Assembly (NCBI GenBank): GCA_963402885.1
Contig: OY727099.1
Location: 11,272,001-11,336,000 of the forward strand
Direction: 5' to 3'
DNA length: 64,000 nt
DNA from: Antedon bifida
Taxonomy: Eukaryota > Echinodermata > Crinoidea > Comatulida > Antedonidae
Part shown: in pieces, positions 15,909 to 53,695 of the stretch
Layout: every line of letters starts with the position of its first letter
How positions within the stretch are numbered: the stretch's first letter is position 1
The notes under the pieces: model-generated
Databases searched by the model: none
What the model saw: the letters and a program-made list of their open reading frames with translations, nothing else
Told to the model about the DNA's origin: nothing
Program-made: the position numbers and the translations under genes

Positions 15909-18900
15909 ATGGCGAAAGATTTATCAAATCTAGGGTTAAAGAAGATAAATACAGCTATTCCAGAATTGTCTGATGTTGACCAATACTCAACATTAATCTT
16001 GGACAACAATGTGATCGCCAAGATCGAACAGCTAGACAAATGTCTGAATCTTCAACAAGTGAGAAATAATAAATGACACTCTATTTAAACTGTTCATATA
16101 ATAATTAATATAAATTAGTAATACTTCTGCTTTAATTTTAAATAATGTCATTTTTAATAATTATATAAATCTGTTTGTTTTCCTTGTTCTTTTTTTGTAA
16201 ATTGTATGTTTATATGGCGATCCTGTTTTGGTGTTTTTCTTTACACTGTTGGATCTTGAATAAATAAATAAATAAATAAAATAAATAAATTTACTTCCAT
16301 GAAGAATTGACAAGAGCTAAATTGCAATCCTAGATAATTGAACAAAACAATAACATGCAAGACAGAGAGAAAATTTAATTTTTCAAATGTAATTCATTTT
16401 GTGATTGTTTTTTGTTATTCAGCTTTCTATAGCAAACAATCGTATAATACATATAAATGGAGTGGCCAGGCTGAGAAATCTGCGTGTTTTAAATCTACCA
16501 ACCAACAGTATTCAAGGAATTGATGGCTTAAAAGATTTGATACAATTGGAATGGTTGAACTTATCAGGCAACAACATTAAGGTTAGAACTGGAAATAACT
16601 ACCAAATAATGGCACAAAATATCCAAATAAGGTTACAAAATAACAATATAAGGGTACAAAATATCCAAATAAGGGTACAAAATATCCAAATAAGGATACA
16701 AAATATCCAAATAAGTATACAAAATATCCAAATAAGGATACAAAATATCCAAATACGGGTACAAAATATCCAAATAAGGGTACAAAATATCCAAATAAGG
16801 ATACAAAATATCCAAATACGTGTACAAAATATCCAAATAAAAGTACAAAATATCCAAATAAGGATATGAAATATCCAATTAAGGATACGAAATATCTAAA
16901 TATGGATACAAAATATCCAAATAAGGGTACAAAATATCCAAATAAGGATACAAAATATCCAAATATGGATACAAAATATCCAAATAAGGATACGAAATAT
17001 CCAAATAAGGATACAAAATATCCAAATAAGGGTACAAAATATCCAAATAGGGGTACAAAATATCCAAATAAGGGTACAAAATCTTATCGTCTTATTGTAA
17101 AAATCAGCAGTGTTCTTGTCTCCACCATAAAGCATACAGTATTGATAAACTTTGAAATTAATTAAAATGTTTTGTTTTGCAGTCTATGGACAACTTATCC
17201 GCTTGTCTTAAACTGAAGCACCTTGATCTGTCTGATAACAGTATATCTGCCGTCAGCAATATCTCACTATTGACCTGTTTAAAGGTAACATTCATTATTC
17301 AGGCCTTGTCTTTTAAGGCGAGCTAGTGCAATCACTCACCTAACACACTCCTAAACTGCCCTTGAGGAGTGCGATTTACAACACGCTTAAATTTGGTAAA
17401 CTTCTACACACCAACATACAAACAGCACACCTACAGCACCCCTGAATGTATTGAGGAGTGCAATTTGTAGCACACCTATAATTTTCAAGACAAGGCCTGA
17501 TTATTATATCTTAACCTCTGTCTACACTATCAAACTTTATGTGACAACAAATGTGATGTGCCCATATACTGCATGGAAATGATGATGTCATATCACTACC
17601 ATATTTAAGCATATCACTACCATAATTGGGCACATCACATTTTTTTGTCAAACTACTGTAGTTTGATAGTGCAGACAGAGCTTTAAATAATGCTAAACAA
17701 ATTTGTGGTGTACATTGACTTGAATATTGCTTTTTAAAACGCTTCAGTTATCCAGCTGGAAAATTCTATTACATTTGTTAATTTTATAAATGTTTTAAAT
17801 GTATTGCAAATTGTTTACTATGTAATGGTGTTTTTAAAATTTAAAATAGGAATTTTCAATGTTTTCTTTTTGTATTTGAAGACCCCAATGGTAATATGTT
17901 TTTTATTCAACTTTCTCAGATTATCCTCAGTTCATTCAGTTAATATCGTTTTTTTTTTGTACATTTTTAATTTATGTCTGTTATTTGCAAAATGAACTGA
18001 AATACAAATAAATAAATAAAAACCAGCCTTGTTATCACAGAATTGCAATAATTGTTGAGCAAAGTTGTTACTGCCAATTACCATGATGTATGTGTCTAAT
18101 ACATTAATATACCATCCTTATTTACCTCTTTTAACATCAAGTTCAAATAGTGAAGCTGTAGTTTGCTGGTTAACATGCTTGCCTTCAAATCCCAAAGTCC
18201 AGGGTTCAATCCTGACCTACAGTATTGCCAGAGTTATAACTCACGACTCTTTTAATTCCACTCTCTCTCTGTAATTGCCGAGTTTCTCGCTGTTGGATGT
18301 GTATGATTAAAAAGTATGTTTACATAGCAATAATGTTGGCAATAACGTTGAATTGTATTTGACTATACTTGCTGCGTTATTATGGGTTTTATTTACTATT
18401 AATTGCTATTACCACTTCAAAGAGAAATTAGCAGATAATTTGAGTGCAGTGCTGTAGTCGGTAGTTACTGCGGAAAGATCTTCTGAACAACAACATTTTT
18501 TTCAAAGAACATCCAATGTATCTTCTTGGTACAAATGGTTCAGGGTGTCTGAGCAACTGTGTAATGAGAGATTCCTCCATACCTTACGATCCTGTGCTGA
18601 CCTAACTGTTTCCACAGCTGTACAACCCCCTTTGCTGTAATTCCGTCCGTCCATCTTAGTTTTTTGCCTTACTCACGATCGTTTACATTGCACAGGCAGC
18701 TCCCATTAAAATGTCTTTCTTTAGTCCCAGATGTCTCGAGATATGTGCGAAACATACATTTCATTATTGCTACTAAATAACATTGTTCAACATCCAATGT
18801 ATTTGATCTTTAATGCTAATTAAACTTATATGATAAACAGTGCTTAATCACATTTTATTGTACACTTGCCATGTGTGTGTAAACTTTATCATGACATTGA

Positions 18901-21900
18901 TGTTTTTACTGTTAAGTGTCAAAACATGTACTAAAGGTCAAATGTCACGTTGCAGCATACTTCATTATAAGCACTGCTATCATATTTTTATAGATAAAGT
19001 TTGATTTTTGATATTGTGTTTGTTACACTTGATTATGAAGATGTTAGCTGTGTTCACACACACTGGAGTTAACTCTGTTCTATACAGGCTAGCAGATCCA
19101 TGTTCACACACACACTGGAGTTAACTCTGTTCTATACAGGCTAGCAGATCCATGTTCACATGCACTGGAGTTAACTCTGTTCTATACAGGCTAGCAGATC
19201 CATGTTCACACACACTAGAGTTAACTCTGTTCTATACAGGCTAGCAGATCCATGTTCACATGCACTAGAGTTAACTCTGTTCTATACAGGCTAGCAGATC
19301 CATGTTCACATGCACTGGACTTAACTCTGTAAGTTCTATACAGGCTAGCAGATCCATGTTCACATGCACTAGAGTTAACTCTGTTCTATACAGGCTAGCA
19401 GATCCATGTTCACACACACTAGAGTTAACTCTGTTCTATACAGGCTAGCAGATCCATGTTCACATGCACTGGAGTTAACTCTGTTCTATAAAAGGCTAGC
19501 AGATCCATGTTCACATGCACTAGAGTTAACTCTGTTCTATACAGGCTAGCAGATCCATGTTCACATGCACTAGAGTTAACTCTGTTCTATACAGGCTAGC
19601 AGATCCATGTTCACACACACTAGAGTTAACTCTGTTCTATACAGGCTAGCAGATCCATGTTCACATGCACTAGAGTTAACTCTGTTCTATACAGGCTAGC
19701 AGATCCATGTTCACATGCATTAGAGTAGAAAAAAGAGTGTGTAGACATAATTAATAATTAATTGATGGTTATGATTAATTAATGAAATATATCCATTATC
19801 ATAACTTTTTTTTTGTGCCTGGCACCTGGTTGGTATAATTGTTATAATTTATCAGGTTTCATCAACTTGTGACTGACATAAACAATAAATATTAAAGTCT
19901 TGCTACTGACCTCAGCTACTGAACCAGTTAGTGCACCTTCTTCAAAATCTCAATCAATCATATTTCAATATTCAGGAACTCAACACTTTCCCCCACAATA
20001 ATTTCGGATTAATAAAACCATTGATTTTGAAATAAACAATATTATTTTGCTTGCATGTTTGTTATTATTATTAATAAGATTTTTCATCTTTCGGTCACAA
20101 ATGGAATAAACCCTAAAGTCACAAAACCATTTGTAAAAATTGATAGACAGGCACCTAAAATTTCTGCCTAAGGGTGAAAGAAGGAACAAACATATCAAAT
20201 GTAACGAAAACTTAACCTTCTTTGCTGGGGTACTAATTCTGTGTTGTGAAAAAAGTTCAACGTAGTTCACAACAATATACTGTTAATTCAGTTTAGCTAT
20301 TTTTTAATACATTGAATGTAGGTTACAGTTCAACTTCAGTTAATGTTTATTTACGTGATGTCCTTAAGGCATGTATGTCGTTCATGGATCTAATATTATG
20401 GTATGACATAATGGGAAAGGACCCAGTGATAATTGTTTTATATTACAAAGTGAAACACCTGGAATATTATCTTGATAACCATCAGTTGATACATTTTAAA
20501 GCTCCACGTGAAGTTTACAAACTTTTCAGTGATATTCATTAACCAGTAATGTCGCACAATTTGTAAAGTTTAATATTTTGTGACAAACCTTTAAGCTCTG
20601 TGATCTACACAAACTTTGACAAAAAAATGCGATGTGCCTATATATGGACATAATGGTATCATATCACTACCATATTTAAACATATCATCATTACCATATT
20701 TAAGCATATCACTACCATATTTAAGCATATCACTACCATATTTCGACTTTTTTATCTAACTAGTTTGATAGTGTAGACAGAACATTACTCAAGATTTATA
20801 ATCAACCAATTCAGCCTACTTTGTTTCAAATACATTGTGTACGTCATCAGCCGTTGTTTCCAAGCATCATCTCCAAACCTAATGTACATGTATTTGTAAT
20901 ATTATTTACGATCTGAGTACATTTCCCTTAAGACTTAAACACAATTTGTTGTTTCACTGAAGATGAAATGTATTAATAGACCAAAATGTCAAATCTACAA
21001 AAACACATTTTAGTGCAATAGTTCGTTGAAAAATGATTATTATTATATTTAAAAAAAAATACCTCTCATAAATGTTCTCAAAAAGAAACATCAGACACAA
21101 CCCAAAAGATCATGGTCAATTAAGAGTCTAGAAAAATGTTTGCGTGCATACCACAATCATTTTAAGTACATACTCAAGTATGGTGTAAGTATTTTAATGC
21201 TTTTAGGAGAATCATGATAATGCAATGTCAAGTTACATTATTGGGATGTTGTAATGTTAGTTGGTCATTATTTACATCACAATGTTGCAAAGTGTCAATA
21301 TATTTATATTCTCCTATTCACACTAATTTTGTATGATTCCGAAGGTGTCCCCTTAATAGTACTTAGTACTTACTTAGTTCTACTATATTTCTATGCATTT
21401 TCTTACATTATGGTCATTATTTCCGTCACAAAGTAGCAGAACTTTTGCTAAGAGCTATCAAAAGGACACTTTCTTGCTAAATAAACAAGGATCAATATAT
21501 ATTTGAACACTATAACAAACTCCCTATTCAAAGGACACCCCTATTAAGGGGACACTTTGTTTGTACCCTTAACAGGGGTTCTACTGTACTTCTATGATCA
21601 AATAGTGAGGGTCCCAAATGATCATCAATTGCTGGATGGATCACCCTCATTAAATATGGTTCAAATAAAATAAAGAAATTGAGAAAAAAAACACTTCAGA
21701 ATAAGAGGCAATGTTATTGTTACTTTTCTATTTCTTTGCCACTATTTTCATAGTGCTTTTAATACTGTAGACAATTACACTATCCATTGCCAACTAATTA
21801 CCAAAGCTATTATGTGTTTAACTAAGTACGTACAAGGTTGGTTTGGAATGGTTGAGATCCAGTCTAACTATGAAAATATTGATTATTGAATTTCCACTTT

Positions 21901-24900
21901 ATCTGTAGCTAATGGTTACCAATCATGCTTAAACTGATACTTAACAAATTTACATAGTTCTTAAGTTCTGAAATGTTAAAACTCCCGTTAAAACTATTCA
22001 AATCTTTGTCTAAAAAATTGTGCTTAATTGTAGTTATCTTCAGTGACTGCTAGTGATGCTTTACTTGTTTAGTATATACAATTGTGCACAGTTTATGAAA
22101 ACAGTAGTTGAGCAGACAAAATGAATAATAATATAAATACTAATAATAACAATTCATTTGTAAACTACACTTTTGAACAGTGGCACACTTCTTGAATGAA
22201 GGTGCGGTCCAGAGTAAAGTAAAATAAAAGTTTAAACAAAAAGTGATTTAACAAGAAAAAAAAAGAAATAGAGGATTTAAGAATTAAGCAATTTCATTGT
22301 TGCTTCCTTTCTCTTTATTACTTGAATATTAAGAAAGTTATTTTCTTGAATAAACAGCATCAAGCTGATCTTCACATAAAAAGTGATCATCGTCGGTCAA
22401 TGACGTCATTCAAGATCTTAGTCACACAACCAACGTAATTGAGATTCTTTGATTTGCAACAAAGTTTGACATTATAATGCTAAGATTTATGTGAGATTTG
22501 TCTGAATTAAATTGATTTCTTCATTAGTTGTTGTAATTCACTTTAGTTAATCCTGTTCTTTTAAGTATAAATGGATTTATTTGTTAGAAAACTATCTAAA
22601 TCCTGTTCAAGTGCATTTGGATTTACATAGGAGAGCCGTAGCCACCAGCACCAACACTTTTTCACAGAGGCCTTTGACAACCAAGTGGCTTGAACAGAGA
22701 TTGTTCCCTTTTCTTGTGAAAACCGCACCACTTCATAACTTGTGGCTACATCACTTCACTGCATAGTATCTTTGATCAAATTTCATATTGATCAATTATT
22801 GCCTCTCCTCTGGTCAAGGTGGGCACTGGACGAGAGAAGCCCTTGGTCAATGATAGGACCAGCCAAAGGTGCTTTAAACAGTCCTGGCTTAGTTTCATCC
22901 ATCATTCTGATGAATGTAAGATTAATAATAAAGTATAAAGATAATAATTGTTTTTTACAGACCTTGCTTCTTCATGGTAACATCTTGACAACGCTACGAG
23001 GTGTACCTGCCTATTTTCCAACTTCGCTCACCACACTATCTCTCGCAGAAAATGAAATCAGTGACTTGACGGAGGTATGTACTTTTGCATCCTTTTAATG
23101 TTTTGAGATTTAAGCAATGACTTGGTAGTTACAGTGGTTTCCTAGTAAGCCTTTAGTCCCTGGTTCAAATCCAGTCTGATTCAGTTTTCTTTTCATGATA
23201 CAAAAAAACTCCACACTGAATGACTTGTAAGCCTTTATGTAGATATGTTGTGTTTGACTTGCAGTACATTAGTATGGAAAGAGTGAGCAACTTAGCCGAT
23301 GGCAATTCTTGGTATTATGCCTAAAAAACCTAGCATTACAGTCATAAACAGTTAGCGTCTCATTTCGCATGCGAGCCCACAGTCATGGAACTCAATAAAT
23401 GTTACCTTGCGTGTGGTTCAAAAATAATATAGCTTATATTGAATTGTCATTATTTAATAAACTGTGACATTTCTCTAACATTATTGTAGGTACAAATTGT
23501 CAATTATGGAGATTTCTTGAAAGATAACACAAAACATGCTGTGAGCGCACATGTGCAATGTAGGTCACCGGATGAACGCAACCATGTGTTCAAAACCAGA
23601 AACAAAATTTATTCGCTGCGGGAGCAAAAACACATTTTTTTAGGTCATCTTCATGTGATTTTTATAATTTGTATATTTTTTTAGATGTCATATTTATGCT
23701 GTCTTACCGAACTGGAACAACTGTCGATCAAAAACAACCCTGCTGTTTTAATGACGGCCTCTGTGTATCCTTTACCACGCGTACTATCATTATTCTTATT
23801 CTAAGCCGATTTTTAAAAATGTCATAGTAATATTATAAAGGTTGTATTTTTTTCTTTAATGTATTTATGTTTCTAATTTTTAGTATACCAAGTACAACCT
23901 ATTTGAAAGTCATATAGATATATTTAATTATTTCTTAAGCTCTGTCTACACTATCAAACTTTATGTGACAAAAAAATGTGATGTTTTCATATACAGTATG
24001 GACATGATGATGTCATATCACTACCATATTTGGGCACATCACATTTTTTTTGTCGTCAAACTAGTTTGATAGTGTAGACAGAGCTTTAAACTTAAATATG
24101 ATTAATATTTCTAGGAAGAAAGGAGAATGTATCTACAAAATTTTCAGTATGTGTAAGCTGTAATGAATTTTCTACCAATATCTTGTTTAGAACCTTATTT
24201 AATCCTTAAACAAATGTATCAGTGGTTTTGATTATAGGCCTTACGTAGCCAATTGGTGTTTGACTCTGCATGTTCTAGATGGCGCTGTTATTATTCAAAG
24301 AGAAAGGTACGTACTTGATAAGCCCATCCCTAGCAACACCATAGATTTAGCCCCGGACTTGTTGCACAGTAGCTATGGTAAATACTTGGATATAAGAATA
24401 CCCCTCTTGTATTTAATGCCCTCATTTCTTAAGTTGTATTCCATTTAGTTTATCTGTGGCTGAGTTATTTTCACAATTCATTGGAATATAATTGCCAGTA
24501 GCAAAGTCATAAATATGTTCCCAAGATACCCGACATTTTGCTATATAATTATTTTGCGATATGTTATGGTTTTCTGTGTAATATTTGATGGTAAATATTG
24601 CCTTCCGCATTTTTACCAATTTATATTAGTATGTCATGATTATATTAGCTTACCAAAAATGTTGAGAAGTAGGTCATGACAAGGGCTACTGTTACACTCC
24701 AGGTAAGAGCTGGGTGGTGTCTCCTCAGGTAACCAATGTTGCATCACAGATAATGTTCACCTGTACAGTTAGCATTTGTTTCATATGATTAATATTAGTT
24801 AACTGATTTAAACATGGAGTTTAGTAGAATAAAGCTCTGTCTACACTATCAAACTTTATGTGACAAAAAAAATGTGATGTGCCCATATATGGACATGGTG

Positions 24901-27900: not shown

Positions 27901-30900
27901 TTTAATTACCTCGTATTTATTTAGGATTTAAATTTGTGTATATTTAATCCTCTTCCTCGTTTTATTTACTGTGGCACCAAATAAATTAAATGAAACTTTT
28001 TACAATTATATGTTATTTTGATCATACATAGCTGTTAATACAATGGTTTTATTCAGTTATAAGATTATTTTTATCATTTTTATTATATCGTTTTTTTATC
28101 TTTTTTTTTAGACTCATCATGGAAAAATAGCCTTTTAAAATCCAATTCTTTATACCTACCATTCTCAACCAATCTACCTCCAAACGAACTCAACAATGCA
28201 AACTTCAGACCATCCACTGCCCCACCAAACCATAAAGAGTCCGAGGCTCAACCATTTGATAATCGTCCAGCTACGGTTCTAGGATCAAAAGGCATATCTA
28301 TCAATACACAGACTACAAAATCTGGTCACCAAAACGGCAACGCAAATCCAAACAACGCAAGTAGCGACCAGTTTTACTTGTTCAACACTCCGAAGAACGC
28401 CGCTCGGACGCGGGAACCAACTAGTTACGAGGCGTACGAAAACAAACGACTAATTCCTCCTGATCAGAACACAGGAGTTAAAAAGACCAAACCACAAACT
28501 TCATTCGATCCCGAGATTAGTCCAAAACTTGGTCTTTCTGAACCAAAGAAATCGTCTTATAAAAGATCAAAAAGTGTAACCGATAAAAAAACATTTAAAC
28601 AAGAGAAAGTAGAAGAAGTAATTTGCCAAGCAGAGTTAAGAAGAATTAGAGAAATTGCTTTGAAGAGACGCAAATCGAACGAAAGAAAGTTGAAATATGA
28701 CTCAAAAGAAGATGGAAAAGATGTTAACCGGAATGACATCATTAATCGGCAAGGAATCAGATCACACCAATCAGGGAAACCAGAAGAAGACAGCGCTGCC
28801 ACACGTATTCAGGCAGTTTGGAAGGGCCATCATCTACGCTGTGGCAATGATATGCAACAAAAATGGGATGACCTTCATCGAAGACGTTTACAAGAACATG
28901 TTGATCACCTGACACAGGAATTAAACAGGTTACGTACTTTCCAAAATTTTATTTAAGACAACACACTGGTTAATATAAATGAAGTAGGGCTAATGAGAAT
29001 ATTTAACATTCATCACAGTAGAGAAGGATTTATGTGACTAATATGACTACTATGTTTCACATGACCTTTTTAAAACACATATGAACAACTTCAATAACAC
29101 TTGCTACATAGTTTAAAAAAACATCAATATTTCAATCAATTTGGAAGTATTCTCAATTTTTACTTAGTGTAAAGTACAAATTGTGTCAAAGTAGGGCAAA
29201 ACATCTGACCAATTACTCAACTCTCTGACGCAAAGCTACTCTACTGTTACTAGTTAAAAACAATTACAATAAAAAAAGTTTTCAAAGAGTTGTTGCTACA
29301 GATCAAGTCACACCATTAAAAAAAAATTGATGGATTGCATTAATGATTGATTTAATTTTATTTCAATGTAGAGTGAAGAAAGAGAATGAAAAGGAAAGGA
29401 ATCTGAGAAATGTGCATATGAACCTGATGCAAGCACTATGTTCACAGGTTAGCAACTCATATTGTACATCTTTGCTTAAAAATTAAAAACAACACTTTTT
29501 GTTTCAACCAATGTTATGACAGTATGTGAAGCGCCGCTGATATGAGTTTATCAAAGAAATGGGCGCTATATAAATGTTAATGCGTGGTTCCCACTAGAGA
29601 CGCAACACAATGACGTCCCGCAACATAAGTGAGTTGACCAATCACAAGCGATGAATTATTTGAACTGTCGCTTGTTATTGGTTAACTCGCTTGCGTTGCA
29701 TCCACGTCCTTGCGTTGCGTCTACGTCCTTGCGTTGCATCCACGTCCTTGCGTTGCATCCACGTCCTTGCGTTGCATCCACGTCCTTGCGTTGCATCCAC
29801 GTCCTTGCGTTGCATCCACGTCCTTGCGTTGCATCCACGTCCTTGCGTTGCATCCACGTCCTTGCGTTGCATCCACGTCCTTGCGTTGCATCCACGTCCT
29901 TGCGTTGCATCCACGTCCTTGCGTTGCATCCACGTCCTTGCGTTGCATCCACGTCCTTGCGTTGCATCCACGTCCTTGCGTTGCATCCACGTCCTTGCGT
30001 TGCATCCACGTCCTTGCGTTGCATCCACGTCCTTGCGTTGCATCCACGTCCTTGCGTTGCATCCACGTCCTTGCGTTGCATCCACGTCCTTGCGTTGCAT
30101 CCACGTCCTTGCGTTGCATCCACGTCCTTGCGTTGCATCCACGTCCTTGCGTTGCGGCCTAGTGGGAACCAAGCTTTAACAATGAATCTAGATGTTTAGA
30201 ATGCTTTCAATTTAACCTTGTACAAGATTTGTGTTGTGAAAAACAAACTAAGTTCAACCTGGTACTTATTGGGAAAACAGACTTGCATTTAAGTAGTATG
30301 TTTACGTCTACAAAGATACTGCTGAAATTAAAACCGAAATAACAACATAATTTAATACTATTTTCGACAAAAAACATGTGTTTTTTTCCCTTTTAACATT
30401 CAAAGTTGTAAAATTTTTGTATTTTATTACTCTTTAGGGAAAATATGAGTATTACATAATCTATTTGATTTATATCCAACATAAAGTGAGAGCTTTTTAT
30501 ATATTTGAACTCGTATTATACGTTTTAAATAAATCAACAAAAGTATGAATCTCAAATGGTATAATGATAAACTCCCCTATGAATGATTGTCAGTACCCAA
30601 TAGATGGGTTCAACCATTTTTAATAGGGTAATTATCTTGTAAACGTCTATTGTAGTAGAATAATATTGTTTTACATTTTTTTGGTGCTGTTTTAATGTGT
30701 TTTAAATTCTTTTAACTTGCTGCTAATTTGTTTATTGTTTAAACAAATTCTCATGTGTTTAATTTGTACTTAACAGGTAATTGTTAATTAAAATGAAACA
30801 ATCGAATGTATTCAACTCCAGTACTTGACCTCCTGTTCATGTCAACTCTCAAATTAGTTTAATGTACATTTATTAATGAGTTTTTGTTTCAGTTTTGTTT

Positions 30901-33900: not shown

Positions 33901-36900
33901 CATTGTCAATCGTTAAACCTATTTACAAAAATGAATACAGTATTAATCATCGGTAAACCAGGTTATTAGTCAACTATTGGAACAGATAATTTTGAAGGAA
34001 TTGTTATTGAATTAATTTGAATTTGAAAGATTAGTTAACATGAGATGGGACTTAACTTGATTTCTAACTGAAGTATTATTTCCTTTTTGTAGATTTAGCG
34101 TTAAAGCAACATCAATCAATGGTGACTCTGAAGACTCGAATATTGTCGTCTTTCAAATGAACACAATCCCAGCGACCGATAAAACACAACCTGAAGAGAA
34201 AGATGAAGATGATGATTCTGATTCTCAGAAAGGAAATCCAAAGAACGAAAATATTTCGAAGGAAGAAAAATCTGGAGATGCAGCTAAGAAGGAAGACGCA
34301 TCTCAGAAAGAAACTTCAGATGAAGACGTTACAGGTGCTAGCAAACGAATGATAGAATCCACTGCTAATTATGAAAACTCTGAAACGTTTGGTGATAGCA
34401 CTTATACTGGAGAAGATATATCTACTGAAAGCGGTTGTATTACAGATCAAAATGCTGAAACTCTTCAAAAGCTAGAAGCTGAAACTCTGCAAAAACTAGA
34501 AGGTGAAACTCTGCAGAAGCTAGAAGGTGAAACTCTTCAGAAGCTAGAAGGTGAAACTTTTCAGAAGCTAGAAGCTGAAACTCTTCAGAAGCTAGAAGCT
34601 AAAACTCTTCAAAAGCTAGAAGGTGAAACTCTTCAGAAGCTAGAAGGTGAAACTCTTCAGAAGCTAGAAAGTGAAACTCTTCAGAAGCTAGAAGCTGAAA
34701 CTCTTCAAAAGCGAGAAGGTGAAACTCTTCAGAAGCTAGAAGGTGAAACTCTTCAGAAGCTAGAAGGTGAAACTCTTCAGAAGCTAGAAGGTGAAACTCT
34801 TCAGAAGCTAGGAGCTGGAGATGCTAGGTTTGATGAAGAGTGTGAGCTGTTCAGTCACAGAGATAACTTGTTAAGGAAGGTGCAACTTGATTTATCCCTT
34901 ATAGATGAGGATGAGATGACTGAGCAATATGATAAAATAGAACCTTTGCAGACACAGAAATCAGTCTCTTCGTTAAGTTCTATGGTTACACCTTTACCTT
35001 CTGTAAACTCGCCAGCCAAGTCTTCAGACAAATGTGAAGTTTTAGAAGAATCGAGAAACAGACATGTGCCAGAAATCATAGATGACAAAAGTTTAAATTT
35101 GGAAACAACGGATTTGGCAAAACAAAAATTCGAACCAGAAATGGCAGATGCTAAAACTAATTCAGAAAGAATGAAATTCACTGAAGAAACTAATCCTGTC
35201 CGAATTAAGCAATCAAGCAAGATGGCCGCCAATTTTGCAGTATTAAATGCGTTTGCATTCCAAGCTTTTGAACAGTCACGAAAGCCGTCAGAAAGTGAGG
35301 AGAGATGTGATGAATTGCGGCAACCAAAATCTATGTCTGTTGAAACTACAGATATTTCAAATGCAAGCCCAACAAATGTAGGTCCAGCAAAGCAACCAAA
35401 AGATCCCATCATTAGCATCGATGACAAACCAATACTAACTGGTTACAGTCCCGAGTCGGATACCGAGATCACTTCAGAAAAAAGACAAACACATGCGTTT
35501 GGGCGTCCAAGTAGCATACCTATATCACGGTCCAGATCGATGTCACCCAGCAAAAGACACAATCACCGAACAATGCCACAGGTAGGAAAACGAATATATA
35601 GAAACACAGATTTTACAATGAAACACAATGTTATATTTAAATTTATTTTACCTCAGCATAATAATCAAATAATAATTGTGTAATTGATTGACAACAGTGA
35701 TTTTTGATATTTTAATTTTTAAAACATATTAGTTTGTTTGATCTAAAAATGTCTCCCTCTTGTGACCTATTTGAATAGACACTACCGCTAATACTAAATA
35801 ATTATTTAATTAGAAGGAAATTAATATAAATATATAGTACATTATTTTATATAAAGTCATAAAGCTTGTTATTGTAAACAATTGTAAATCTAGTTATAAA
35901 AACATTATCTATTACTAATTATTTACAAATTAAATTTTACATACAAATTCATTTTAATGATACCGTAACTCGTCCAAATAGTCAAATTATCGACACCCAA
36001 ATAAAGTTCACTGATTGTACCTTACAACATATTATTTAAACACTATGCCACTATATATTAATGTTAAATATACTGTACATTTACAAGTGAAATTATCGAC
36101 TGCTTGAATGAAGCATTTGATTTCAGTAATACATTACAACATTTTATTTAAAACAATGTTAAATATACTGTACATTGCAAGTAGATAAATGATTGATTCA
36201 TTACTATCTTTTCCCACTTTAGACCATTGCATTAATGGCATGGTAAGTTCTCAAGTTTGAAGTGGTTTTTGTTTAAAGCTCTGTCTACACTACCAAACTT
36301 TATGTGACAAAAATATGTGCCAATATATGGACATGATGATCATATCACTACCATATTTGGGCACATTACACTTTTGTTGTCAAACTAGTTTGATAGTGTA
36401 GACAGAGCTTTACAGTTATATTGCATGTGATTTTCATTTTATATTCTATACATCCTTTGATTTGTGTGTGAGACATTCACCCCTGTTGGTTGTTGTCATA
36501 AACATTTCAAAACACATGCTTTTCAAATCTTTTACCTTTCATATGAAACTTTTCTGCCCACCTTTCTAGACCCTTTTCTTACACCTTCTCCCCCCCCCCC
36601 CTCGCCTTTTTTTTAATACCTTCATAACTTGTTTGCTTGCTGTGTATATTTGTGCATCGAAGCTTACCACATTTCATGTGTATACTGTATTTATTTTTAT
36701 TATTTAAAAATTAGGAAGACTTTGTTCACTCTTGCAAATTTCTATGTTCCTGTTTAAAATGCATACATGTACTTTAGTGTGGTAGTGTGACTATCCCAGA
36801 CACACTTGTCCAACAGTTTGTTTTAAACTTGTGTGAACTGTAGTTATGCACTTACTACAGCTTTGCAGGATTCAACTTTCACCAGTTGCGTTGAAACTGG

Positions 36901-39900
36901 TTTGTCAACTTCTAAGAAAATAACTACTGCCCTCACTAGACGAAAGTGTCTTGCGCAAGAAACTTTTGAAACAAGTCTAGAACTGCCGCTTCTGCATCTT
37001 TCCTCCAAGAACCACTGCCTCTGGTACATACGTGAGCCCTATAAATACGAAATTGTATGAACAATCTGTTAGCTTAAATTTAAAACCATGTACATGTGTG
37101 CACAAACAGCAAGCCAGTTGGGTGAAGGGAGGCTGTTTGTGCTAGTGTTCAAATGACACATTCCAGCACTTGACCCCTGAAATATCTCAAAAATTAATTA
37201 AATTGAGACAATGATCAATCATCAAGTTTACAGTGACTTGTTTTGTGTTCAATGCAGGTACAAACTGTCATTTTAAACACAGCTATTGAACATTGTAATT
37301 GTAAAGGAGTGTGGCGCAGTGTCTTGGACGTTGGACTACTGATCGTGGGTTCGAATCCAACACTTATCGCATTTCTTTTATCCTTAGGCAAAATACTTTA
37401 CTTACGTTTGCCTCTCTCCACCCAAGTGTATAAATGGGTACCTGGTAAGGTCAAAATACAATTGCACTTCTCACTAGCTGCATTATGGGAGTATGTTTCC
37501 ATACGTGTTTGATCCAAAAATGACCGGTGTAATCATATGTACAACTCTTACAGGTTTCACAACATTAGGCACTTTATAAATCCAGAATATTATATTATTA
37601 ATTAAAGTTTGCATTTAATAAGTGATTTTACACATACCTGAACAATCTGTACTATTTCATTTTGAACCGTCACTGCCAAGTTGAGATCAGACCATGACTC
37701 AATAACTGGACATACTCTTATAAATCTTTCATCTTCTTCTGATCTCTTTGTTCTGTTCAACAATCTCTCGCTGTCAAACATCGTCATGTTACTGTGTTCT
37801 GTAGTGTTATCGCCTTCGTTTGCTGTTTCCAAATTTATTACCAAGTTTTCATTTTTGGATTTTTTTGCAGAATTTTTATTGTATTTGTACTTTAACCATT
37901 TCAGATATTTTCGTTGTACTTTTAAAGACTTTGGCGTATTATTAAATTGATTAATTCTTAGATTTTTTTCAACACTTCGCTCGCTTCTTTGATTATTAGC
38001 AGAACGTCTTGCACGTACTCTTGTATGTTCTTTTACAGCTTCAATTGATGCCAGGTTTGAAATTGTAGCTGAAGATCTTGGCTTGCCGTCTCGTGGTCGG
38101 GATGTAAAGAAGCCTTGATATTCGTCTATTATTTTCCTCTCTTCGTCGTTGTCTAATCTAACTACCTCTGTATTTATTTTTGCGATTTGAACGCCATTGT
38201 CGACTTGTTTTTCTATAGTTTCTAGTTTATGAGATGCTTGCGATATTGACAAGGATGTAGATATTGACAAAGATGTGGATAATCTGAATAGTGTGCTCAC
38301 TAATGCCAATAGAACCAAGCACTGTATTCGTGTGAAATTCATTTTAATGATTAAATTCTGGAATAAAATAACAATTGTTTTTAGTTATTGATAAAAAAAA
38401 TAAAGCAATAATGTAATGTTTGCAGTAACAGAGGGCTACAGTATGTTTGGCCTGGTTTTAACAGGACACATTCATGATTGATTGATCAAACCCTTGATGG
38501 TCACCTGATCACCCCTTCCCAGAGGTTGCTTATTCCCTCTCGCACTCTTGCCTAAAAACTAGAGGAACCATCTGAAAATTGTTTTCAATATCATCTTGAG
38601 ACTTGTTAGATGAACATCAGTATTACTATAGAATATTTTGAACTCAATGGAAAAAGAAAAAACTCTGCAATGCTCAATCCAAACTTAACAGTTTGTAAAG
38701 ATTTTACACAAAACAGAATGTAAACTTACCTTACGTAATGGATCCTATGACAGAATAACGTTTTAAAAACTTAATATCTCTCCTCAAAGAATGTTGAAAT
38801 TCTTTATATACTTTTGCGACATCCCACTCAGGTACTAAACAGATTCTCTCATTTCATTGGTAGGAGCAGTAACTAAATTATGAATAATACATTCTTGACT
38901 AAAACATTGCAACTAAATGTAAACTATTAAAATTTCCCCTGCTAGAAAAATGGAATAACCACTTGAGAAAGTTAAAGTATTAGCACAAGTCGTACTAAAT
39001 ATTCGTGTGCCCAGATGGTTCCGCGTCCACTTGAGCAAAATCAAGGAGATCTCCACATTGCAGACTTTAACATCAATTAGCCTGTTCCGAATTCAACACT
39101 TGTTTTATAGTTGAATAATAAGAACTAATTATTTGTGTGGTTTATTTATAATTACTCATTAATTTCTTGTCTGTAAATGTTAATTAAAAGTTGTTTATGT
39201 CATCTTGCCTTGCAGGATGTAGTTTCCATATTTGGAATTGTAAATCATTTTTGTTTGATCAACATTCTGCTCACAGCACTCACTTGCAATTTTAGTTCAT
39301 GTAGTCTTTTATAAAATATCAGGGCCGTAGCCACCAGTACGGTTGGTAAGGTTTCAACCTGAACACAGAGGCCTTTGACAACCCAGTGGATTGAACAGAG
39401 ATTGTTCCCTTTTCTTGCGAAAACCATACCACTTTATTTCTCATGGCTACATCACTGAATAATATGATATGTTATGTTTTTCAACGACCTACATTTGGAC
39501 AGACCCTGAGTTAGTTTCCTCATAATTTAAAGATTTGAGATGCTTAGTTTTATGCTTCTTTAAGTTTAAGTTTTTTTTTAAACATTGTCATAATTGGTTT
39601 AGTTATTAATAACCAGTTATGACAAATTATGAGTATGATTATGATAATGATTCAAAACAGTTTTTTATCAAACTTATTAATAGACCCTCTGCTTAATAAC
39701 TGTTAAAGAGCATATTTTTCTGTTTTATTTCAACATTATTTCTGGGTAGCTGGTTTCCATCCAGGTCTACTTTTTAACTACGTACAAAGACCGTCGTCAT
39801 ATAAAATTACAAACCAGAAAAATATTTATTTTTGTGATATCTTCAATATCTGTGGTTACATTATATCCGTGTTGATATTGTATAGATTGTGTTAAGATTA

Positions 39901-44568: not shown

Positions 44569-47070
44569 TTATTCTGTGGAGTGAGGATTTCTCCAACCAC
44601 CAAACTCTTTCTCCAATTGCATAGCAACTGCTATTGTTAAACGGTCTTGGTTCCTGTTAGCTACAACCTGTATTCCCAGAGGTAAGCCATCTGAGCTCAG
44701 ACCTAAAGGAACCTGCGTCACGGGCAAGCCTAGCGCATTGAAAATGGCTGTATGCGAAAAGTTCATGGGTGTGAATAGTGGAGCGTTGTGATACTGAGTT
44801 AGCTTAGGATGGGATGGATAGAACAACACCCCATCATCTCCTAAAATATTACAAATTTCATCTTTCAATTTCTCACAAGATCTTGTGAGTTTAGCAGTTT
44901 GGTCTGGTGATAATTTATGTAAGTTTTCAAACAATGCTAGCAGTATGGCGGGAAGGGTGTGGTCCGACTTCCTAAATATTGATTTAATTAGCTCAAGGAA
45001 GGGCACAACTTTAGGTCCGTTACCGCTTAAAAGGGAATTGAATGATTCGTTGTCGGTGGTCACCATTTTGGCTGACCAAAGTCCAGTACTGTACTTGAAC
45101 CGATGTGGCTTTATTCTACTCACTTCAACTCCATACTCACTTTCAAGGTAATTGATTACCTAAAAAAAAGAAAAACAAAATCAGCTTTCTGTAAGGTATA
45201 TTATATTGGAATACTATTTTTATGATCAAACTAACTGTAAAAATCTAATGTATTTAATATAAAATGATCATACATTTTCTTGTGCTTGCTTCAGTTGAGG
45301 GTTAAGCCGCGACACCAAGTATTCTTCACCACCGTCCTCAATGCTAAAGAACCTTAATTTCTTAATGTTTACAGACTTCCCCAAATCCAGTTGCTTAATG
45401 TTCTCCTCTCCCGCCATAATCCGCAACATCGGTTCCAGATCCTCTGCATACCGACACATTGGACCAGTTGCTAACAACTCTAATCGGTCGTCCTTCGCAT
45501 TTGGAAACTGCCCCGCGCTCGATACAATCCCAGGAGAGGGTTTATGACCGAAGATTCCATTAAAGAAACATGGCATCCGAATGCTGCCACCTATGTCTGA
45601 GCCAACACCAATGATTGAGCCACCACCTCCGATGATTGCCCCTTCACCTCCTAATAACACAATAATGCAATGACTCATTATATACAAAATAAATAAACAA
45701 AACAAACTAACAATATTTTGTTTCACACAGAGAGTTTTTACCCTTGGTCAAGTCGTGTTTAACTTGTTATCATTCTTGATACTATTTACCCCTTTCCTTT
45801 CAGATAAGAGGTTTAGTAATATCCATTCTTTGTCTGAAGACTTTACAGCTTACATTTTTGTGTGTTTTGATTGGATGGACCTCTGTAATTTGTCTAGGAT
45901 TCTAACATAGTTACTTGAAGCCTACCTGAGCTTCTTCATCTTACCTGAGCTTCCTCCTACATTCCTCCGCAGGTCATATGGGTTATTTGACCTTCCATAG
46001 ATATGATTGGCTGACTCATACCACATGCAAAGTTCTGAAGTGTTAGTAGAACCAATCACAATGCACCCAGCACGCTTTAGGTTAGCTACCACATCAGCGT
46101 CTTTATCACTGATGATGTCTTTACGCGACATCAACCCACTTGTATTCGGAAGACCTTAGAAAAGAAACAAATATTGTGTGATTATATTTTGTCATTTTTT
46201 GGAAAAGACACTGGAGAGCCATCGCAATTAACAAAGTTAAAGTGACCGCTGCAAGTAGCCGCTCCTAGTTGACACTCCTAGTAGCCGCTCCAAGTAGCCG
46301 CTCCAAGTATATTGAACTCCTAAGTTGCCTAATCATTAGGAATGACTATCAGCATTGTTAGCAGTGGAAAGGGAGAACACAGCTGGTGCTAGATCTGCTG
46401 CAGAAGCCTCATAAGACCCCAATTTTGCTGGAACTTAAGAAATGTCAGTCATTATGTAATGTTTTTTCATTAACAATGTTACATCTTACCAATGCATGCA
46501 AATGCCTCCTTTACGGTCAATGGTACCCCGAGAAATGGGCTGCTGGCTTCCGAGTATTTTTCATCAAGAGTTGGCGAGTCCAGAATTTTATCAACTTTTC
46601 TAGCTTCTTCAAGAGCTTCCTCAAAACGATTTGCAACAACAGCGTTCAAAAATGGATTAACCAATCGAATCCTTTCAATGTAAGCTTCAATAACGCTCAC
46701 ACATTTTATCTGTTGAAAATTAAGACAAAAACTATTTAATCAAATCCAAATCAGTTTCATTCATATCAGTGTCTATTACCATACTGGTACAGATTTCCAC
46801 ATGAGAGTGTTAAAATGTAATAGCTAGTCTGTCAAAATATAAATATCAAAAGTAGTTCATAATTTATTTTAGCTGCTTTCAATAATATCTTCTTCTTACA
46901 TTACGTGACCGGATTTGTTTTGCAATTTTTGCAGCACTTTGCAGGAGTAGCTCATTGGTAACGGCTGGTATTTTGGCTTTTGGTCGCACTCCATTAATCA
47001 GTAGTGATAACATGTGGGCAATAATTGCAAAAATGGATTTTACAATTGCCCATAAACCAGAGGTTGCCAT
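44569..47070 (-). CDS. FAAH2: Fatty-acid amide hydrolase 2 (amidase signature family)
   Basis: Five coding exons on the minus strand: 46900-47070, 46490-46709, 45945-46154, 45274-45650 and 44569-45159. All junctions are in phase, giving 522 residues (human FAAH2 is 532). FAAH2 is a membrane serine hydrolase that cleaves fatty-acid primary amides and N-acylethanolamines. A hydrophobic N-terminal anchor spans about residues 6-26. The amidase signature is complete. Catalytic Lys124 is in GVPLTVKEAF, Ser199 is in VGGSSGGEG, and nucleophile Ser223 is in GSDIGGSIRMP. The 75 and 24 residue spacings equal those of FAAH (K142, S217, S241). Other conserved blocks are SELCMWYESANHIYGRSNNP, GIFGHKPSPG and GLPLGIQVVA. 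A splice acceptor before the ATG implies a 5'UTR exon upstream. It is tail-to-tail with CEP97 and head-to-head with the A20-like gene. Confidence 0.95.
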
Positions 47071-48960
47071 CGTTTGTTCACAAACAGCTCTACTAAAATT
47101 GAAAAATCCTATGAAAAAAAAAATGTTTTTTTATTATTTTAATTTGTTTATATTTTAATATGTTTTAGAAAGGACTTTGTGATATCCGGGTTCATTAACC
47201 TCATTTTTTGGTATATTTATGTCAAGGCAACAAAATTAAGTGCATTAACCCTAAATAATGGGGTACAAGCTCATTAATAAATAACCTACAGTAACATTAC
47301 ATAAAAATATTAACAATATGCCAATGTTTCTCAACAGTCATAATGTGCCAGTTGTCCCAACTATCGGCGGCGTACAAAGGAATATTAGGGGACTTGGGAA
47401 TACAAGTTTACCCAGGGAAGAATAATATAAAAGTTTACTACTCCTACTACACTATCTAGTTAATATACTACTACTACTACTTCTTTAGGCTACTACTACT
47501 ACTACTACTACTAGAATAGACTAAATGGTCTATTCCGGCGCTACTACGGTATATAACAACTTAAACACCACTAACAAAATATCCGACAGGCTGAAATAGA
47601 TAAAAATACTAATAAAATAGTAAACACTTTTTTAATTGATGTAATCATGTAATTCTTGTCGCGCGCCCTCAATTCTCTTTCAGAGAAAAAAAAACGCCTC
47701 TTCAACGCCACAAGATTGTACTATTTTATTTTTAGGGCTAAAATATTAAATTGAAAATTCTTTTTAAAGGTTTTAAAATTAGTAAATACACATTCTGAAA
47801 ATAAAAATAAAACACAATTTTTAAAATAAGAATTTAATATTGATTGAGATTTTATTTACACAATAGTAAAGTTTAGACTTCTGCATTTACCTTTGAGTCA
47901 CGATTCGTCCATTATAACGGGGAATTCCCTTACAAATAACTATTTATGAAGATGTTGGAAATTTTGTCAAACTAAAATTAGGGTTTTTAAGCGTCATTTG
48001 AAATAACTGTAGTCAAAGGAGGATGTGATTCGTTTTTACCTATATTTAAAATTGCTGAATATACAGTATATTATTTGTGTAAGTTTATTATTGTGTTATT
48101 TTTTGTGACCATTCTTTACTCGATTAGCTAGCTAGGCCCAAAATCTTGGCAACGACACAGAGTAGTCTTTGTTGACTACGCAGTATCGAAGCCTTTTTTG
48201 TATGTCACGAATATAAATGGTGGATGTGGCAGTTTGATTAGGCGGAAGTATTTGCATATTAAATGTACTTTGACCTCAGGAAAGTTTCAGATCCTTCCTG
48301 ATCATGAGTCAATCATTACATTACATAAGTAACTTTATATTTACATTTCATAATACACACAACCATATTTCACATAATACTGTACGGAAAATAAACAAAT
48401 ATTATTTATTTTATAGATCATTTTTTTTTTGGAAATTAGTACTGCGTTATTTTTAGTAACGCAGTATTGAGCCAAATGAAAGAATAAATACAATTCTACC
48501 TTCAACTTCCTACCAGTATGAAATATTATTACCTCTAATACTGTAGGTTACAGCATTTTATGTAACATTACCAGTAGTAAAATCTAGATATATTTAACAA
48601 ATTTTAAAAATAGTAGACTGAACTCAAGGCCAGATCGAAAGTAGTGCTAGACTGAAACATTGCTTGAAATAATTTTATAATTTAAAATAATTTTATTCGT
48701 ATTTGTATATTTTCTATAATTATAAAACAAATTGACAAAATTAAAGTAAGCCATTCAAATGCCTAGAATACGTGGACATTTAGTAAAATATATTATTTTA
48801 CTTTAAATCATAAATTCTTATTCATTCATTACATTTTACAGTTTATATTCTCAGCCCACCGTTGTTTATGCAGCCAGGTAAGAAAATAAAAACCTGTAGA
48901 TGATCTTGATCATGTGCAATTGTTGTCTTTTTTTATTACAGGTTCGAGAACAATTCCAGG
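47071..48960. other. Head-to-head interval between FAAH2 and the A20-like gene
   Basis: This 1.9-kb stretch must hold 5'UTR exons and promoters of both genes. It contains a (CTA)n-type repeat at about 47433-47515 and AT-rich sequence. A donor CCAG|GTAAGA at 48877 and the acceptor at 48941 suggest a very short 64-bp intron before the A20 start codon. I see no other coding sequence. Confidence 0.5.
47433..47515. repeat. (CTA)n microsatellite, interrupted
   Basis: Runs of CTACTACTACTACTACTACT broken by short non-repeat pieces. Confidence 0.85.
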
Positions 48961-51900
48961 ATGGCTCCAAATGAGAATGGAAAGCAACGTCATGGCAGTC
49001 TCGCATCAGGATTGCCACAACGTATAGCGGACAGTGATCAGGCCGTCAAAGAAAAGATCCGACAGAAGGTAAAGAGCGATATTTTCGTGAATCCAGAACT
49101 GTTGAAGCCAATGTTGTTCTTCAACATGTCCATGTTTTCCTTCCTGCTACCTGAGCATTGGGGGTTTCAGCCAGCAGACTTCATGAACAGCCTTTATATG
49201 AGTCTTTTAGATCTCAACATAATGAAGGCGTTTGAGACCAAGAGAATCATCAATTGGAACGACAATTGCACAAAACTCTACCCTTTGAAAACTACAGGTT
49301 TGTGATTTCCACTTATTTATTAAAATAATATTTTTACTATTTTTGTATAATTTTAATGCTAATAAATATAATGCTACAAAAGAAGTCATAAACAAAAAAA
49401 AAACAAATAATGAAAATGAAGATGAAAAAGGAAAATACAGTCAACTGGCCATTTTTTACGTTTATGAAATTTGTTAAAAATTAGGTGTGTGGGATAATAC
49501 TCAAGCATAGGATTACATTCTTGAAATAATTTGGATCCTATTCCTGGTTTAATTAAATTTGTTTTGTAATTTGTGTATGGGTCCTCTGGGAGAACAGTTT
49601 TTTTTACTGAAGAGGTCACTTAGTATAAAGAACAAACAAATAGATAAATAAATAAATATTAATAGGAGTGCAATGATTTTTTTTGTTGGATCAACAAAAA
49701 ACACTCTTCAGTATTCGGTGATATTCTTTGAAAGCAAAATTCTTGTTTAACCATCATTTTGTTATATCAAATTTGAAGGTGATGGCAACTGCTTGTTGCA
49801 TGCCATCTCTCTCTTCCTGTGGGGAATTGAGGATCTTGATCTACAGATGCGTAGAGTACTCTATCAAGAAATATTCAAAGACAACGGAGTTAAGAAATAT
49901 AAACAAAGATGGCAACTTAAAAGAACAGCGTTTGATGAATCGTTACCGTCGGGTGGCTTGCGTTACGACACCATGGTTAGTTGTACGCTCATATTCAGTG
50001 GCGTCATGGCTACCATCTGCTAGTAGAACAATATATTACCTTAACCTGCTACATATATCAACTTTATTTATAACAACCCTTGTGTGTCATACAGTAAAGC
50101 TCTGTCTAACAGTATCAGACTGTGATGTGATGTGCCCAAATATGGTAGTCATATAACATCATGTCCATGTTTTTTGTCACATAAAGACAAGGGGACAGAG
50201 CTTTAGACATGAATAAAATTGCACAAAACCAAAGCAGAGCAAAATGTATTATTTTTATAATACTTTACCATAGAAACACCTTGTACATTTATCAATTTTA
50301 CAAGTAAAAACTGGATTTTAATACCAAATTTCAATATAATTTAATTTTTTAAACATATTTTTTTTATGAATCTAGAACTGGGATGATGAATGGAAGTTAG
50401 TCATTCGTAATTCATCACCAGAACCAAATCCAGAGGGCCAACATATGTTACCGTTTCACTCGCTGGAAGAAATCCACATATTTATTATGGCAAATATTCT
50501 GAGAAGACCGATTATTGTTCTGGCTGACACAATGTTTCGGGATCACAGAGGGCAGTCTCTCCAGCCACAGAACGTTACTGGAATATACCTACCAGTACTT
50601 TCAAAAAGCAAAGATTGTTGTACTTTACCAATTATTCTAGGTTACCATGGAAACCACTTTGTACCGTTAGTGGGTAAAAAGCTACTACCAGATGAACATT
50701 TAGAAATGGCTTTACCACTTTGTACTAAAGATATTGAAGCCTTTCCGGTACACTTTCTACTTCCGGACGAAGAAGCAACAAAGTTTAGTCTGTTAGAATC
50801 ATATTTGAGTCAGAAAGCACTACCACAATCTGGGATTGCTGACACAATGGTTGCTATACAAGTAACCATACTCGGTGACAAACAGTTTAGTGAATCGATT
50901 AATATTATGGAAACGTACTTCAGGTTAGCAGAAAGGAATTACCGAACAGGATCAATGTTCACTTCACCAAAGAAAGTAGAAACAAGAACTGAATCTGGAA
51001 AAGCAGGCGTCAAGATTTGTTGCATGTGTAATAAGAGTCCAGCTGATGGTGAAAATGATGTTTGCAAAGAGTGCCTAGTGACCACTTGTACGAGTTTTCA
51101 TCCTTCTGCCTCAGCTCCGCCAGTGAGTATGCCAATTGACAGATTCAATGATATGACATTGGCAGAAAATAGAGGAAATGATCCTCATGAGTCAGTATAT
51201 AGAGGACAACTACCATCCGCGTCAAATTTTGACAATAATGCTCAACTTGGTGCCTACTCTATTTGCGTTGACAAGCCTTGCAAAACTCCTGGATGCCAAT
51301 TTTACTGTTCATCAAAACTACCTGGTGATTACTGTCACACCTGTGGCTTCAACGCACCAATGGGACAGCAGCATAGCTCAATGGGACAGCGGCATAGCTC
51401 AATTGAGAAATGCAGAACAACTGGCTGTTCTAATCTAGCTAATTTTGACAGACAAGGTCTTTGTGATCTCTGCTCTGAAACACAACAATTTAAGAAGCCA
51501 AGTCGTCCACAAGTAGTTGGATATGATCTACCTTCTCCGCCACTACCGACAGCCTCTGGATTCCCATCTTCATACAAGGAAAGGTCAAATGCTCCGATTG
51601 ACCCAAGTGGTTTAGATAGCATGCAGATCTTACAATCATCTACTGGAACTAAGAAATGCCTTGAACCAACTTGCAAACTAACCGGTCAGGAAGCCTTTCA
51701 GGGTTTCTGCCAGAGATGCTATCATAAAAATATTGATATAAAGAAACGTGATGAGAGTGTTCCACAACAGAGGATACTAACTAGTACTCTGAAGCAAGGA
51801 TCAATGGTACCAATGTACCCGGTTGTTAGCAGCGTGGAAGAGTGCAGAACGGAGAATTGTAACTTGTTTGGTACCAAAGAACAAAATGGTTATTGCACCA

Positions 51901-53695
51901 AATGTTTGGGAGACGTGTTGATGAAAGAAAGTAATAAATGTAAAAACCACTGGTGTGGTGGACAAACCATTCACGACGGCTACTGCAAAGAATGCTTTGA
52001 GCATACACCACGACTAGGGGGAGAAAGACTAGGGGGAGAAAACCTGTCTTCTAACGTCACTTGTGGTCAGGCAATTTCTTTACCAAATCTTTGCATAACT
52101 AATGGATGCCAAGGTGTCATTGTAACGCTAGGTGATGGAAAACACTGTCACGGCTGTCACAAAGAAAAAAATGACACTGTTCAACCGATGATGAAGTGCG
52201 TCTATCCAAGATGTGATGAAATGACGCCCAGAGATCAACCAATATGTATAAATTGTCAGGACATCTTAGATGCTAACAGGCCAAAAGATGTCAAAGCTAC
52301 AGAAACACCAGCGCCCTCTACAGCCTTAAAACTGGCATGCAGTGAGTGTCGTAATAGCTTTGCAGGAAGTGATGGCATTTGCAACAAATGTAGAGCTTAT
52401 AGTAAGTTATCATTTTTACTAAAATTCAAAATTATGTTTTGTTTTCCTTATTTTTGTAATTCACGAAAATGGAGGTAACTGACAATTACCAGCTGCACAA
52501 CGAAATATATTTATACTGAAGAAGAAGAACAAAAAAAAAGTACTTCAAAAGAGTCTTTCTATGTACAGCATTATTTATATACAGTGTTTAAAAAAACTAA
52601 ACTATAAATCTTATATTTGTTTACAGAAAAGAATGGTGGACATGCCATTGAAGAAGGTAGGCCTACTCATTGCAAGAGTCCAGGTATGTTGGATTGTTGG
52701 CTAAACTCTCCTAAGTTTACAGGTCCTATTTTACCAATGTTCACAATTAGAAGGCCACATCTGACACCATATTATTATTTACCATTTATGTTAGACAGGT
52801 ATAAAAGACTGCCTAATGATAGATATATTACACTAAATACTAATAGTATTGTTTATTGTCATTGATCCCTCACTTCACATGTCTTTCCTAATACGCCTTA
52901 TAGAGCGTGGCATACACATTAATGTTACCAACACTAAATAGTAGACATATATTAATTATAAAAAATGATAATGTGCAGTTTTCATAACACTTAATTAGGC
53001 TTTTGAAAGATTTTATAACCTGTGATTGTTCATTTTTGTAATTTTCCACTGAAGTAAGATAAAGATTGAATATACTGTACATATATGTTTATTGAGAAAG
53101 AAATAGGTGCTGCATAGACAGGATCATGTATAAAAATAAAACAGACAAAGTTCTTGTTTCTGCTTCAAAATAAAATATTTATTGTACAATAAAATATTAC
53201 AGTACAATAAATAACAAGAACTTTGTCTGTTTTATGTTATTAATGTATGTATATATATATATATAATGTCTTGCAGGATGTGATATGTTTGGGACGGCAG
53301 AGCATGATTGGTTATGTTCCAAATGCTACGCTAATAAACCAGCAAAACGTGAAAGCCATTCAGCTCCAATCAATTCTTGCGTGGCAAAAGACGAACCGTA
53401 TAAACCGAGAAAATGCGTTAACGACTGCGGAGGATGGGCCAACGTTCAAGTTCTCAACGGCTTGTGTAATGATTGTTATCAGTTGTACAAGACTGATAGA
53501 CCAGGTAGAGGCTCACCAATGCCCGGGAGGGTACCGCAGTCCGCAAGAATAGTAAACGATCCGCAAGGATATCAAGCTGAACCAAGGAATCGCAATCGTA
53601 CGGACGGAAAATGCTTCAATCCAAAATGCACGAATCGTGGAAATCCCAAGTCACATGGCTTCTGTAATTCTTGCTCAAAAAAGTTACAAGTGTGA
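48961..53695 (+). CDS. TNFAIP3: A20/TNFAIP3-like OTU deubiquitinase with twelve zinc fingers
   Basis: Five coding exons: 48961-49297, 49779-49975, 50376-52401, 52627-52683 and 53277-53695. All phases agree, giving 1011 residues (human A20 is 790). A20 edits ubiquitin chains and restrains NF-kB signalling in the cytosol. The OTU domain (about 110-370) has catalytic Cys117 in GDGNCLLHA and His272 in NHFVPLV. A20-specific blocks include NWDDEW, SLEEIHIFIMANILRRPIIV and GYHGNHFVPLV. C-terminal to it are twelve A20-type Cys4 fingers whose first cysteines are near residues 393, 480, 524, 606, 668, 700, 751, 786, 833, 869, 919 and 985. Most follow C-x4-C-x11-C-x2-C, and the ones near 393, 833 and 919 vary. 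Human A20 has seven. Finger ten is split exactly by the exon 4/5 junction. A splice acceptor 20 bp before the ATG shows a non-coding first exon. A family A element lies in intron 2 and a foldback in intron 4. The closely related OTUD7 proteins carry one finger, so A20 is the better call. Confidence 0.94.
50095..50204. mobile_element. MITE-like element, family A, shortened copy in A20 intron 2
   Basis: TA-AAGCTCTGTCTAACAGTATC at the left and AAGGGGACAGAGCTT-TA at the right. The inner part of the right terminus is degenerate and the interior is shortened to about 110 bp. Confidence 0.8.
53136..53235. other. Nested foldback inverted repeat in A20 intron 4
   Basis: Outer arms ATAAAACAGACAAAGTTCTT (from 53136) and AAGAACTTTGTCTGTTTTAT (to 53235) are inverses. 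An inner pair ATTTATTGTAC and GTACAATAAAT forms a second stem. The whole would fold as a roughly 100-nt hairpin. Confidence 0.8.

Follow-up and report, generated by a model that had tools for sequence, protein, structure and literature searches.

A candidate gene for a two-disulfide, coagulogen-like secreted protein in the crinoid Antedon bifida

We analyzed 64,000 nucleotides of genomic DNA from the crinoid Antedon bifida (GenBank assembly GCA_963402885.1, contig OY727099.1, positions 11,272,001 to 11,336,000 of the forward strand; this whole stretch is the window, and all positions below are positions within it). On the minus strand of the window lies a predicted gene whose product, by sequence comparison, is a member of the neurotrophin/Spätzle/coagulogen group and has a precursor of the Spätzle/neurotrophin style; relatedness is what the comparisons establish. 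The reading we favor, to which we give a probability of roughly two in three, is that this animal gene works and encodes a secreted, furin-processed, two-disulfide coagulogen-like protein, which probably serves as an extracellular ligand for a receptor of the Toll or Trk type.

On translation, coding exons 38342-37638 and 37038-36844 (minus strand) join to give an unbroken 299-residue preproprotein. A first-pass annotation of this DNA had described a complete minus-strand gene with an RTKR site and a 99-residue mature chain, which our re-reading confirmed, and the TATA box, 5' untranslated exon, leader and prodomain N-glycosylation motifs that it named are all present as patterns in the DNA. 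The parts of the gene, all on the minus strand, are:

38805-38810 (starts 38810), TATA-box-like TATATA, a putative promoter element by pattern only
38730-38780, putative 5' untranslated exon, with donor G/GTAAGT at 38730/38729 and a start placed about 30 bases from the TATA box
37638-38357, exon A, with 15 bases of 5' untranslated region, the leader, the prodomain and the mature chain's first 35 residues
37743-37754, RTKR furin-type site in the translation; with the predicted cleavage the mature chain would begin at Ser201
37039-37637, knot-domain intron of 599 nt, phase 0, between Gln235 and Gly236
36844-37038, exon B, with 64 mature-chain residues including Cys250, Cys263 and Cys293, then TAA
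36690-36701 (starts 36701 and 36695), two AATAAA polyadenylation-like signals by pattern only

The acceptor TTCCAG lies just before 38357; exon A has its ATG at 38342-38340, remains open for 235 codons and runs to the donor GTATGT; the knot intron has GT-AG ends (GTATGT...TTTATAG). The top-scoring 11-mer for hydrophobicity spans residues 9-19 and marks the leader. Basic sites occur in the precursor at residues 110 (RARR) and 197 (RTKR), and N-x-S/T motifs at 134, 179, 185 and 196, with another at residue 2 within the leader. From the hydrophobic leader and the RTKR motif we infer secretion and prodomain cleavage. The precursor has cysteines at residues 8 (in the leader), 211, 250, 263 and 293, which leaves four in the mature chain. 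The stop-to-stop frame at the locus is 260 codons long; first-order Markov shuffling of the window, repeated 60 times, gave no frame of that length or more, the longest reaching 177 codons. An 18-bp tandem repeat within exon A (38242-38281) encodes a repeated STSLSI directly after the leader.

To place the protein we searched the mature chain against Pfam-A, and the sole family listed at E values up to 10 was Coagulin (PF02035; E 6.8e-5, 23.3 bits). Nine control chains, consisting of eight shuffles with fixed cysteines and the reversed chain, gave a best E value to any family of 0.05. With the whole protein two weaker Pfam families (E 0.035 and 1.5) fall in the prodomain stretch. Known members behaved as positive controls: NGF scored 182.7 bits on the NGF profile, and Drosophila and Aedes Spätzle (Spz) scored 107.5 and 75.9 bits on the Spaetzle profile, on which the coagulogen knot itself scores 33.6 bits (cut-off 27).

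Smith-Waterman local alignment of the mature chain with five reference chains, each judged against 1000 shuffles with fixed cysteines, pointed the same way. The score against coagulogen was 73 (z 10.6, no shuffle as high), followed by NGF at 48 (z 4.6, likewise no shuffle as high), NT-3 at 39 (z 2.7, 20 shuffles as high), Aedes Spz at 31 (z 1.4, 101 as high) and Drosophila Spz at 26 (z 0.3, 345 as high); as a yardstick, coagulogen scores 52 against NGF. The alignment with coagulogen is ungapped, has 24 of 74 residues identical and runs through the intron position. Among the 304 open reading frames (ORFs) of at least 50 codons in the window, exon B ranks first against coagulogen (49, the next being 36) and third against NGF (40, behind 44 and 41), so that the direct resemblance to NGF is weak taken alone; the spliced chain, at 73 and 48, beats all 304 in both comparisons. 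Because the profile match and the pairwise scores agree, we place the protein in the neurotrophin/Spätzle/coagulogen group with coagulogen as its nearest relative. Gln243, ahead of the second knot cysteine, aligns with the glutamine of the RQ or KQ pair in all five reference chains, and this glutamine is conserved in neurotrophins (PMC2586362; this and the other papers cited by PMC number are drawn on in excerpt).

The peptides quoted in the first-pass annotation and its spacings Cys211-Cys250 (39) and Cys263-Cys293 (30) proved correct on re-reading, and Cys250-Cys263 is 13. The spacings of 39 and 13 are identical to those of coagulogen C88-C127 and C127-C140, and the last knot spacing is 30 here versus 28 in coagulogen. 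The Cys250-Cys263 loop had also been called shortened; at coagulogen's own length of 13 residues it is not specially short. A six-chain alignment bears out the proposal that the missing cysteines are those at the NGF C68 and C110 positions, which are occupied here by:

36973-36975, minus strand, Leu257 (codon CTT), aligned with NGF C68 and coagulogen C134
36859-36861, minus strand, Ala295 (codon GCT), aligned with NGF C110 and coagulogen C170

In NGF, C68 and C110 are bonded to each other. By alignment, the other two canonical bonds are represented here by 211-263 and 250-293, and no odd cysteine is left over. Each of the two replacement codons is at least two substitutions away from any cysteine codon. 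Of the 15 ways to lose two of six knot cysteines at random, 3 remove a bonded pair; that the two lost here are partners is thus by itself modest support for selection, and loss of the pair under selection is plausible. Where Spz chains have an extra cysteine before the fifth knot cysteine the alignment has a gap here, with Ser292 preceding Cys293; with no counterpart of that cysteine there is no obvious interchain bond. There are precedents for such losses in Drosophila Spz6, which is without two conserved knot cysteines (PMC2586362), and in chordate IL-17, where one cysteine pair is replaced by serines (PMC4517768).

If the gene works as we propose, the precursor would enter the secretory path by its hydrophobic leader, and a furin-type protease would remove the prodomain, with its N-glycosylation motifs, at RTKR. 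The released 99-residue chain would fold as a coagulogen-like beta-sheet protomer with disulfides Cys211-Cys263 and Cys250-Cys293, as the alignment suggests, and Leu257 and Ala295 would stand in for the third disulfide. Protomers would probably dimerize non-covalently, and the chain may then act from outside on a Toll- or Trk-type receptor, as expected from its group. The precursor plan here, with leader, prodomain, RTKR and a knot chain of about 100 residues, is like that of Spätzle and neurotrophin precursors, and an annelid neurotrophin shares it (PMC4812194). More specific is the proposal that this is a selected, working two-disulfide ligand in which a Leu/Ala contact replaces the ring bond NGF C68-C110, so that the fold is without a cystine knot and a coagulogen-like knot domain serves as a furin-released signal; this we hold tentatively, at somewhat less than even odds.

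Several results weigh against a working coagulogen-like ligand gene. Four of the six knot cysteines of the superfamily are present. The Coagulin score of the mature chain is 1.7 bits under the curated cut-off of 25 bits, and the whole protein scores lower (E 5.7e-4, 20.3 bits). Neither NGF (PF00243) nor Spaetzle (PF16077), both with cut-offs of 27 bits, is listed for the mature chain at E values up to 10, a limited negative since the HMMER filters discard most matches above E 0.1. What had been called a neurotrophin-like gene thus stands as a member of the neurotrophin/Spätzle/coagulogen group, with coagulogen nearest and with neither of the two profiles that the first-pass annotation had named among its listed matches; the claim to the superfamily survives because Coagulin matches and the coagulogen knot in turn scores on the Spaetzle profile. 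A phmmer search of the PDB at E values up to 10 gave a single match, coagulogen 1aoc, which agrees with the placement but is weak (E 0.05). A single-sequence structure model of exon B alone was poor (predicted local distance difference test, pLDDT, 53.5), with four strands and a short helix. The codon-usage test was uninformative: of 600 stop-free non-coding stretches, 94 equalled or beat the score of exon B and 82 that of the 35 mature-chain codons in exon A, and in each exon the true frame is outscored by one shifted frame of the same strand. No relative was confirmed among 19 pattern matches in viral contigs and 103 in prokaryote genomes, collections not meant for animals, as would be expected for an animal gene.

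These points bear on four other explanations. Chance, in which an open frame happens to resemble coagulogen, could draw on the sub-threshold score, the shortness of the chain and the uninformative codon usage; set against an E value of 6.8e-5 over the whole library, a z of 10.6, two cysteine spacings that match exactly and an alignment that crosses the intron position without a gap, it is very improbable. A decaying paralogue is an unlikely reading that deserves more weight: here a duplicated copy would have lost its function and then its cysteines by drift, with the frame still open by happenstance, and such a history would fit two vanished knot cysteines whose CTT and GCT codons are both at least two substitutions from cysteine, as well as codon usage that is not clearly coding. 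The 299-codon frame nevertheless keeps its start, splice sites, furin site and promoter-like and polyA-like signals, and the four cysteines left in the mature chain make two canonical pairs with none odd. That the nearest sequence is coagulogen could also mean a clotting or matrix protein like coagulogen, whose knot chain polymerizes once cleaved and is not a receptor ligand. We think this decidedly unlikely because coagulogen's cysteine-bearing N-terminal half is absent, replaced by a prodomain and RTKR, and because the non-knot cysteines are absent too (Ser218 stands at C95 and Trp244 at C121 in the ungapped alignment, and C167 falls in a gap).

The last explanation is that a real member of the group has a mis-modelled 3' end: the sixth cysteine would come from a different splice form or terminal exon, and only one knot cysteine would truly be missing. 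We examined the splice alternatives ALTERNATIVES, listing acceptors past donor 37638 that leave more than 15 residues and donors in frame with acceptor 37038. No listed knot-intron acceptor or in-frame donor restores six mature cysteines, so that the outcome in which another acceptor does so, raised in the first-pass annotation, did not occur among them; an alternative donor at 37632 would raise the number to five. A consensus donor, GTAAGT, lies at 36850-36855 (minus strand), one codon past Ala295 and three bases ahead of the stop codon. With a donor-like site beginning at 36855, the final codons might belong to an alternative end reached by read-through, which favors a mis-modelled 3' end; Ala295 lies upstream of it, however, and VKVESCKAV already occupies the place of FKIPSCCKCAL and IRIDTACVCVL. 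Among downstream acceptors as far as 33500 that follow a stretch of at least 60% pyrimidines, three acceptor/frame combinations carry C-x-C, and by eye none resembles the family; Leu257 would be unaffected by any change at the 3' end. A mis-modelled 3' end is accordingly rather improbable, and a divergent secreted receptor ligand remains the most likely identity of the product, as judged from the DNA and its translation.

The gene is likely nested within an intron of a putative plus-strand leucine-rich-repeat gene, which the first-pass annotation called CEP97 and for which the plus strand here shows leucine-rich-repeat matches: LRR_8 matches on that strand lie above cut-off at 16405-16866 and below cut-off at 22739-23095, and a plus-strand exon past an acceptor at 41066 ends in a stop near 41605. 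No paralogue was found elsewhere in the window (best other tblastn match E 0.15), which also has no Rfam match at gathering score and no tRNA; the best PHROGs match had an E value of 0.14. Other elements of the window are:

8197-9267, plus strand, rhodopsin-type G-protein-coupled receptor (7tm_1, E 4.4e-33)
16602-17082, 19051-19726 and 29690-30155, regular minisatellites with units of 21 bp (90% matches), 50 bp (93%) and 19 bp (99%)
34456-34811, 24-bp repeat of 14.8 copies, in frame in the plus-strand ORF 34061-35680, with eight-residue units like ETLQKLEG
44572-46739, minus strand, Amidase-family gene (PF01425) of at least three exons
48910-53692, plus strand, probably an A20-like deubiquitinase gene, with zinc fingers of the A20 type, of which one scores above cut-off (53267-53692), and an OTU domain (50376-52475); A20 is an NF-kB regulator in other animals
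58269-61841, minus strand, probably an SR splicing-factor gene, with an RRM at 61581-61841 and an RS-rich ORF downstream (58269-58871)

These growth factors are usually defined by their knot. If the proposal is true, a natural knotless member would show which bond is dispensable and would test the knot's purpose. A sequence like coagulogen within a precursor of neurotrophin style would also bear on how a clotting protein is related to the Toll and Trk ligands, a relationship left unresolved by the phylogenies in PMC2586362, and a furin-released coagulogen-like signal would, if real, bridge coagulogen and the neurotrophin-type ligands.

Among known systems, IL-17 was rejected as an identity for this chain since no IL-17 profile match was listed in Pfam at E values up to 10, in a search that had no IL-17 positive control. 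IL-17 lacks the threading bond, whereas this chain lacks a ring bond, and the two differ in cysteine spacing. Chordate IL-17 is like this chain in having a knot-type fold and four cysteines (PMC4517768). Spz6 has likewise lost two conserved knot cysteines, which two not being stated in the excerpted text, but differs in having three extra cysteines and no knot intron (PMC2586362). The Spätzle family at large (PF16077) resembles this protein in having a prodomain and then a C-terminal knot, about 100 residues long, that is released by cleavage, in DERF ahead of the first cysteine, with different spacing, and in an intron within the knot region; the Spz knot intron is conserved but absent from Spz4 and Spz6 (PMC2586362). 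It differs in that no profile match is listed and the Drosophila and Aedes pairwise scores are at or near shuffle level (z 0.3 and 1.4), and the extra cysteine beside the fifth knot cysteine of Spz1 and Spz2 (PMC2772990) is without counterpart in this chain. In the excerpted sources, no Spz gene was recovered from the lophotrochozoan genomes of 2009 (PMC2772990), and a leech transcriptome paper (PMC2996935) has nothing on the neurotrophin/Spätzle/coagulogen group.

Neurotrophins share the precursor plan, a cysteine with tryptophan six residues on and RQ.F.E..C before the second knot cysteine. They differ in having six knot cysteines rather than four and longer loops, and in that the knot coding is split by an intron here, whereas vertebrate neurotrophin precursors are contained in one major exon (PMC2772990). 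Coagulogen differs in its cysteine-bearing N-terminal half, where this protein has a furin-type prodomain, and in the cysteines C95, C121, C134, C161, C167, C170 and C172, none of which this chain has; with it the chain shares the stretches CPV, TV..E...IVQ, RQ, CR.GS and VR.V...LE.D.

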